Part shown: positions 43,299 to 44,477 of the stretch, in pieces
How the letters are laid out: each line of letters starts with the position of its first letter
Numbering within the stretch: position 1 is the first letter of the stretch
Assembly (NCBI RefSeq): GCF_008931805.1
Contig: NZ_CP044399.1
Coordinates: forward strand, 4,265,370 to 4,329,369
From: Moritella marina ATCC 15381
GTDB taxonomy: Bacteria; Pseudomonadota; Gammaproteobacteria; Enterobacterales; Moritellaceae
Direction of reading: 5' to 3'
DNA length: 64,000 nucleotides
Notes under the pieces: generated by a model
The model's database searches: none
Seen by the model: only the letters and a program-made list of their open reading frames with translations
What the model was told of the DNA's origin: nothing
Translations under genes and position numbers: made by a program

Positions 43299-43327
43299 TT
43301 GACATTTTGCGGTGAATGACGAATTAT
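43299..43327 (+). promoter_or_regulatory. Candidate sigma-70 promoter for the dapA leader
   Basis: A perfect -35 TTGACA (43299-43304) is 17 bp from AATTAT (43322-43327), a 4/6 match to the -10 box. Transcription would start near 43334 and make a leader of about 225 nt. Confidence 0.5.
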
Positions 43328-43416
43328 TAAATGTAAAAAAGTAACAATAAAGATTAAAAGTAAACGATAAATAATAATCGCTTACATATTTTTTTTCATC
43401 AAAATGAGAACGTCAC

Positions 43417-43470
43417 ATGCTTACTTTAAAACGAAAACAAGATAAACAAGGCAAATTAAAGCTTGTGTAG
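43417..43470 (+). CDS. Putative lysine-rich leader peptide of dapA
   Basis: A 17-codon ORF encodes MLTLKRKQDKQGKLKLV and then TAG. Five of 17 codons are lysine (four AAA, one AAG), within an 11-codon stretch. GAGAA ends 6 nt before the ATG and can serve as ribosome-binding site. Eight bases around the start (43413-43420, TCACATGC) are exactly complementary to eight at and after the stop (43470-43477). The next segment can pair with the 5' arm of the terminator hairpin ahead of dapA. Size, lysine content and stop position match the his/thr/trp leader peptides. Not a family I know; coding is inferred, and an alternative 13-codon ORF starts at 43404 without a ribosome-binding site. Confidence 0.55.
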   Translation: MLTLKRKQDKQGKLKLV

Positions 43471-43477
43471 CATGTGA

Positions 43478-43539
43478 TTCGAGAACATATAAATCCCTAT
43501 AGGAACCTCGACCGCAATTTATGTATTCGAGGTTTTTTT
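43478..43539 (+). promoter_or_regulatory. Candidate transcription attenuator of dapA
   Basis: The terminator is AACCTCGA (43504-43511) paired with TCGAGGTT (43527-43534) followed by TTTTT, ending 20 nt before dapA. The competing antiterminator is TCGAG (43479-43483) paired with CTCGA (43507-43511), with inner TATA/TATA pairs (43488-43491, 43498-43501). The two cannot form together. A ribosome at the leader stop (43468-43470) would cover about 12 nt downstream and mask 43479-43483, favouring termination; one stalled on lysine codons would not. Confidence 0.6.
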
Positions 43540-43559
43540 ATAACCGAAATGGAGCTTCT

Positions 43560-44477
43560 ATGAGTGTTAACTCAACGGTCACCGATAAATCAGCAATGAA
43601 AGCATTACTTAAAGGCTCAATTGTTGCTTTGGTTACCCCGTTTAAAAATAATGAAATTGATGAACCGGCATTACGTAATTTGGTGGACTGGCATGTAGCG
43701 CAAGGTACGCATGGTATTGTTGCTGTGGGAACAACTGGCGAGTGTCCAACACTGTCATTAGAAGAGCATTGTCAGATCCTTGATATTGTGGTTAGCCAAG
43801 CCGCGGGACGCTTACCGGTGATTGCTGGTGCAGGCTCGAACAATCCGACGGATGCGATCTTATTATCTAATCATGCGCAAGCTGCTGGTGCGATTGCGAC
43901 GTTACATGTCGCTGGTTATTATAACCGTCCATGCCAGGAAGGTTTGTTTCAACATTTTAAAGCGATAAATGATAACAACGACCTGCCAATCATTGTTTAC
44001 AATATCCCTGGTCGTGCGATTGTGGATATCCAACCTGAAACATTAGCGCGTATGGCTGAGCTTGAAAATGTAGTCGGCATTAAAGATGCAACAGGTGATC
44101 TGTCACGCCCTTGGTTAGAGCGCCAACTAATTAAAGGTGATTTCTCTTTCCTCTCTGGTGATGACTGTACGACGGTTGCTTATAACGTATCTGGCGGTAA
44201 TGGCCTTATTTCGGTATCTGCTAACGTTGCGCCAAAACTGTATGCACAAGTGCAGGAATTAACGTTTGCGGGTAAATATGTTGAAGCGAGAGAATTACAA
44301 GATCGTTTGATCACGCTACATAATTTAATGTTTAAAGAAACAAGCCCTGCTGGTGTGAAGTACGCAGTATCGTTACTCGGCCTGTGTGAGCCTGAGTGTC
44401 GCTTACCTGTTATTGAACTAACCCAAGGTACAAAAGACGAAATTCGAGCCGCTATGGTTGAATTAGAGTTGATTTAA
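43560..44477 (+). CDS. dapA: 4-hydroxy-tetrahydrodipicolinate synthase DapA
   Basis: DapA condenses pyruvate with aspartate semialdehyde, the first step of the diaminopimelate/lysine branch. Family motifs: GTTGECPTL for pyruvate binding, GYYNRPCQEGL with the catalytic Tyr, and VGIKDATGD with the Schiff-base lysine. I chose ATG 43560 (GGAG 6 nt upstream, 305 residues); ATG 43596 would give a more usual 293 but lacks as good a site. The leader appears to hold a lysine attenuator. It is monocistronic here, without the bamC partner seen in E. coli, and ends at a terminator. Confidence 0.96.
   Translation: MSVNSTVTDKSAMKALLKGSIVALVTPFKNNEIDEPALRNLVDWHVAQGTHGIVAVGTTGECPTLSLEEHCQILDIVVSQAAGRLPVIAGAGSNNPTDAILLSNHAQAAGAIATLHVAGYYNRPCQEGLFQHFKAINDNNDLPIIVYNIPGRAIVDIQPETLARMAELENVVGIKDATGDLSRPWLERQLIKGDFSFLSGDDCTTVAYNVSGGNGLISVSANVAPKLYAQVQELTFAGKYVEARELQDRLITLHNLMFKETSPAGVKYAVSLLGLCEPECRLPVIELTQGTKDEIRAAMVELELI

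Follow-up and report, generated by a model that had tools for sequence, protein, structure and literature searches.

Transcription attenuation governed by a leader peptide is the textbook mechanism of control for several amino acids, and the corresponding gap for lysine is filled by a riboswitch. The his, thr, trp, leu, ilv and phe attenuators of Proteobacteria combine a short ORF rich in codons for the pathway product with mutually exclusive antiterminator and terminator structures, and their stop codon lies where a finishing ribosome masks arm 2 of the antiterminator. The leader of dapA, the gene for the first enzyme of the lysine branch, shares all of these traits and differs from the six in its amino acid, lysine, and in the gene it precedes; the proposed mechanism is classical and the novelty lies in these two respects. 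The L-box riboswitch (RF00168) likewise provides lysine-responsive control of lysine genes, as the dapA leader presumably does, but the latter has no aptamer and its sensing would go through translation. The speF leader, an arrest peptide acting through Rho, resembles the proposed dapA switch in that a basic leader peptide would control the downstream gene, whereas the dapA leader has an intrinsic terminator and no motif common across families. In the relevant portions of a 2005 analysis (PMC1262725, which cites Vitreschak 2004), lysine is listed under the L-box and his, thr and phe under attenuators; Shewanella lysC is listed under the riboswitch in the corresponding part of PMC2659441. A Sinorhizobium meliloti sORF, SEP5, is similar in being a suspected Lys-codon leader peptide before an aspartate-family gene, but it carries six Thr and three Lys codons and precedes the gene for aspartate dehydrogenase, and the consulted portions of its description (PMC10117765) contain no attenuator structure. 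No lysine leader-peptide attenuator was found in the literature searched, from which the 2004 survey and most subscription journals were absent, in agreement with an earlier note on this DNA that knew of no described example and suggested that this one may be new.

The window analysed here is a stretch of 64,000 nucleotides of the Moritella marina ATCC 15381 genome. Its dapA, encoding 4-hydroxy-tetrahydrodipicolinate synthase, occupies positions 43560..44477 of the forward strand (308.8 bits with TIGR00674, whose cut-off is 206.15), and the nearest gene upstream, on the opposite strand, passes the RsmC cut-off. On the same strand as dapA, a consensus scan places a promoter-like site, TTGACA-17-AATTAT, at 43299..43327, and a weak Shine-Dalgarno-like TGAGA at 43405..43409, which may serve the leader ORF, has its GAG invariant in the alignment of all 11 Moritella genomes of our comparison set (the window's genome is G000, and the family is sampled by this one genus). 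The leader ORF (43417..43470, forward strand) starts with ATG, spans 17 codons, five of them for Lys, and encodes MLTLKRKQDKQGKLKLV before a TAG stop, base for base as the earlier note had described it. Its length and frame are kept in 11/11 Moritella genomes, in all of which the TAG lies 89 nt 5′ of dapA. Eight of these leaders contain five Lys residues and the others six, four and three (genome G010, the minimum), one each. Lys 5, 7 and 15 are invariant, Lys 10 is found in 10 and Lys 13 in 9 of the 11, and positions 3, 4, 9, 16 and 17 drift, with a single change at position 11.

Four segments of the leader RNA are predicted to pair in alternative ways. Region 1, around the start codon (43413..43421), pairs with 43469-43477 of region 2; the perfect 8-bp pairing of 43413-43420 with 43470-43477 reported previously was recovered and gains a ninth pair, 43421 with 43469, and 8 or 9 of the 9 pairs are kept in each Moritella genome and belong to the minimum free energy (MFE) fold of the free leader. 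Region 2 (43468..43483) holds the leader stop codon and the 5′ arm of the antiterminator, TGTG (43473-43476) and TCGAG (43479-43483), and region 3 (43507..43516) holds its 3′ arm, CTCGA (43507-43511) and CGCA (43513-43516), overlapping the 5′ arm and loop of the terminator; both are delimited by conserved pairs and folds, for region 3 duplex and partial folds. The intrinsic terminator, AACCTCGA...TCGAGGTT followed by a U-tract (43504..43540), has an 8-bp stem joining 43504-43511 to 43527-43534, with all 8 pairs present in 11/11 genomes. All four features lie on the forward strand. The TCGAG and CTCGA elements and the terminator using 43527-43534 and the following T's thus stand as first proposed; the antiterminator was likewise recovered but had been drawn too short, since the TGTG/CGCA pairing was missed, and its core comprises nine pairs in Moritella (TGTG/CGCA 4/4 and TCGAG/CTCGA 5/5 in 11/11 genomes), flanked by 1-3 of 4 outer pairs. 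An alternative pairing proposed by eye, 43484-43497 with 43516-43527, was dropped, since both duplex and partial folds point instead to TGTG/TCGAG with CTCGA/CGCA.

The predicted folds of the window follow the attenuator model. The leader folds better than its dinucleotide shuffles (z = -2.96; 1/200 as good). When the RNA extends to 43526 and a ribosome is placed at Lys 10 or Lys 13, the MFE structure is the antiterminator (-10.9 and -8.7, respectively); a ribosome at the leader stop leaves the terminator alone (-14.8), and no ribosome yields the start-stop pairing together with the terminator (-30.5). With all of the downstream RNA present, stability favours the terminator even when the ribosome sits at Lys 10 or 13, and antitermination must therefore be kinetic; in these models, this is as expected for a kinetic switch.

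Taken together, the architecture makes it very probable that the dapA leader is a lysine-specific, ribosome-mediated transcription attenuator sensing lysyl-tRNA. The genomes compared contain the ORF and both putative exclusive structures, with their conservation and geometry; that the ORF is translated, that transcription terminates in vivo and that lysyl-tRNA is the signal is what we infer. With ample lysyl-tRNA, the leading ribosome would read the Lys codons, reach the leader stop and cover region 2, so that the terminator (3:4) would form and transcription would end before dapA. With scarce lysyl-tRNA, the ribosome would wait at Lys codons upstream of region 2, leaving region 2 to pair with region 3; the terminator would then come too late and dapA would be transcribed. 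In an untranslated leader, regions 1 and 2 would pair and the terminator would form. If this is correct, a lysine attenuator operates in Moritella, Aeromonas and relatives, both solutions exist for this amino acid, the leader would constitute a direct reporter of lysyl-tRNA charging, and the dapA response in these bacteria could be predicted.

The window sequence by itself is only suggestive, because an ORF with at least five Lys codons arises at the leader site in 3.7% of 400 shuffles of the AT-rich G000 upstream region, and the case therefore rests on comparison between genomes. Within the window, a single detector found a terminator of this kind upstream of 3 of the 49 genes tested, and dapA alone among them combines it with a leader of at least five Lys. 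Relatives in Moritella keep the Lys codons, the stop position and both stems, which the earlier note had named as support, but the compensatory changes it also asked for are absent within the genus: the stems are nearly invariant across the 11 genomes, so that the genus alone yields no covariation. We surveyed 96 orthologous dapA upstream regions, picked by kinship and excluding family f2; many are closely related and at least two records occur twice (L082/G655 and L083/G651), so these are not 96 independent cases. Eighteen of 80 named loci entered this set; L073 and L088, as well as L074, L076-L079 and L084 from Aeromonas, were excluded because their genera were already sampled, and L080, L081 and L085 because they are f2-like, and L091, L093 and L096 belong to neither set. 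The 70 controls are mostly alphaproteobacterial dapA, plus standard gammaproteobacterial dapA, excluding loci shorter than 3700 bases (L111, L141, L169, L172, L181).

A single detector, applied to both sets, reported an intrinsic terminator in 90/96 orthologous upstreams compared with 7/70 controls, and such a terminator together with a leader carrying at least three Lys in 87/96 compared with 1/70. The promoter-like box TTGACAT occurs 120-300 nt before dapA in 72 of the 86 upstreams that have a leader and in none of the 70 controls. Under criteria that preceded the final ones, a single locus among 27 with standard dapA, L182, had both a Lys-bearing ORF and a terminator, which overlap each other. 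The order of promoter-like box, Lys-rich ORF, GC-rich terminator and dapA recurs in Aeromonas, Oceanisphaera-type genera, Tolumonas and the Celerinatantimonas family (12 genomes), with DapA protein identities of 61-68%, and the same layout is found at 53-59% identity in a few cases: Granulosicoccaceae, Thiofilum, and one MAG each from Acidiferrobacterales, Pseudomonadales and Gammaproteobacteria. The detector picks the shortest ORF, and for this reason 31/86 leaders were reported with a TTG or GTG start; an in-frame ATG is present in 23 of these and absent from eight.

In most lineages, the stretch around the leader stop pairs with the 5′ arm and loop of the terminator, with up to 14 consecutive pairs outside Moritella; examples from other lineages are GCGTGACCG with CGGTTACGC, GCGTAACC with GGTTACGC, CGTTAACC with GGTTAGCG and GGCTGGGT with ACCCGGCC. 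When arms were permuted between 24 sequences less than 80% alike (drawn from 86 rows after removal of G098 by hand), the native pairings summed to -409.2 kcal/mol against a permuted mean of -357.0 (sd 12.8), and 1 of 20,000 permutations was as low, although kinship among the 24 may inflate this result. Individual sequences differ: for Moritella, the native pairing (-10.2) falls slightly short of the means after swapping (-10.4 and -11.2). Over 51 distinct Aeromonadaceae rows, the paired share of antiterminator cells is 75.9%, compared with 26.7-45.2% when the structure is slid, and none of 500 shuffles reached the paired share or covariation score of the antiterminator. The number of pairs with both sides changed (4, shuffled mean 5.0) shows no excess, and the 17 further pair types fall below the shuffled mean of 18.7; sliding by +3 gives a covariation of 0.168 against the true 0.173 and 40 both-sides-changed cells against 28. 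The Aeromonadaceae terminator has 97.6% of cells paired and a single pair with both sides changed, in eight sequences. The swap test and paired share thus support an alternating antiterminator that appears to have been maintained between lineages, and the counts of both-side changes do not exceed controls; compensatory change, as called for previously, is indicated between genera and families by the swap test and receives partial support from the counts inside Aeromonadaceae. The geometry is also kept: 240 of 309 paired arm-2 bases in the 24 sequences are no more than 14 nt away from the leader stop (53% expected if even), which upholds the view that the stop codon is placed for masking of this arm, although fewer than half of the arm-2 bases are near the stop in 5 of the 24. 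In every one of the 24 leaders, between 2 and 6 Lys codons precede arm 2 by 14 nt or more. The interpretation of the leader as an attenuator is therefore supported beyond the window, with Lys codons, stop and predicted alternating stems conserved in the genus and in other families. Lysine would then probably have a classical leader-peptide attenuator of its own. It would belong to a single dapA lineage found in several gammaproteobacterial families, and would have persisted there despite a near-complete change of the leader and hairpin sequences.

At 20% of positions, Lys is the most frequent residue in the 24 dissimilar leaders, which were selected for at least three Lys; Arg makes up 9%. In 17 of the 24, the observed Lys count was matched by fewer than 5% of shuffles, and because these include upstreams of 52-56% GC, the caveat that AAA codons are common in AT-rich DNA is answered; in the other seven leaders, 5-15% of shuffles match. 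Beyond the Lys codons, a KRK core is kept in Moritella and most Aeromonadaceae, that is, in some lineages only. It is encoded by AAA-CGA-AAA in 11/11 Moritella (43429-43437); the Arg codon is likewise CGA in 22/22 Aeromonas leaders, those of Oceanisphaera-type genera use CGC or CGT, and this variation of the Arg codon by genus indicates a constraint on the peptide. Such a constraint, together with the share of Arg beside Lys, could be taken to mean that the nascent peptide arrests the ribosome on binding an effector such as lysine or a polyamine, as in the speF leader, the position of arrest setting the hairpins. We consider this unlikely: distant leaders have Lys clusters with no common motif (KKIQAKVMIKK, KKPVAKK, VKVKVKK), and the final two residues before the stop vary in Moritella. 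Slightly less probable again is a leader that responds to basic amino acids as a class (Lys plus Arg) or to the speed of translation, with no particular tie to lysine. The Arg of KRK is conserved, as CGA, in all KRK-bearing Moritella and Aeromonas leaders, and the basic leader of Neptuniibacter has just two Lys; against this, Lys is about twice as frequent as Arg in the 24 leaders, the G185 leader has five Lys and no Arg, and the gene belongs to the lysine branch.

Much more doubtful is an ordinary terminator preceded by a chance or spacer ORF, with dapA expressed from another promoter or by constant read-through. The 3.7% of shuffles of this AT-rich upstream that yield a five-Lys ORF at the leader site agree with it, and it is at odds with the contrast between orthologues and controls (87/96 and 1/70), the swap test and the stop-codon geometry. 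Least probable is a lysine riboswitch, or a member of another described RNA family. The L-box is the usual lysine control and one is present elsewhere in each of the 11 Moritella genomes, but no Rfam match exceeds the threshold in the window, which refutes this explanation as far as Rfam goes. At gathering score, the scan of the window returned no match, L-box included, consistent with the earlier note, which had found no L-box core here, and at relaxed threshold the surroundings of the leader gave just two weak snoRNA matches (E 0.61 and 1.3).

Several lineages depart from the layout of the lysyl-tRNA-sensing attenuator proposed here. The Succinivibrionaceae-like family f2 (10 of 39 orthologue upstreams in one collection, kept out of the 96, with 7 further matches left out) has the leader in 0/10 upstreams and a terminator in 2/10. 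In these genomes, dapA tends to follow lysS, encoding lysine-tRNA ligase: the LysS cut-off is passed in L080 (lysS and dapA at 77-1390 and 1477-2385), and in 8 of 10 examined (G011, G036, G076, G093, G108, G134, G158, G191) the 600 nt preceding dapA contain a LysS-like motif. All three Marinomonas upstreams contain a Lys-rich ORF, with no terminator found by the detector; their leaders (L097, L098, L107) encode KRNGDKRK and further Lys, followed by predicted hairpins lacking a U-tract, which may reflect another control, for example of translation or through Rho. Neptuniibacter and an Oceanospirillaceae MAG each have a terminator and a basic ORF with two Lys, and a Woeseiaceae MAG has a terminator and a leader with one Lys. 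In G098 the hairpin is weak and the ORF unconvincing, and no terminator was detected upstream of dapA in L089, L104 and L106.

R1, a covariance model built on the Aeromonadaceae element, retrieved the 17 Aeromonadaceae dapA leaders of the order sample of 247 genomes at E 4.3e-6 or better, all of them among its training sequences. It matched neither the window dapA nor any site in G000 and therefore lends no support for Moritella. The matches of R1 ahead of dapA in L105, L101, L095, L086 and L094 rest largely on the terminator, and two weaker ones that were inspected (L257, L260) resemble ordinary gene-end terminators.

Read from 43560, the window DapA has about 15 extra N-terminal residues (43560-43605) relative to Aeromonas orthologues, and an in-frame ATG further downstream is a possible start. 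A second dapA, 41% identical to the first, is located elsewhere in the same genome, flanked by genes matching the GcvR and BamC models, both below cut-off, which we take to be the E. coli arrangement. A scan of eight further loci matched only the L-box of L031 itself. This sole L-box of the window's genome (L031 1501-1685; G000:C2:1074696-1074880) is followed on its 3′ side by a gene resembling a Na+/H+ antiporter-family transporter (model below cut-off), not one of lysine biosynthesis.
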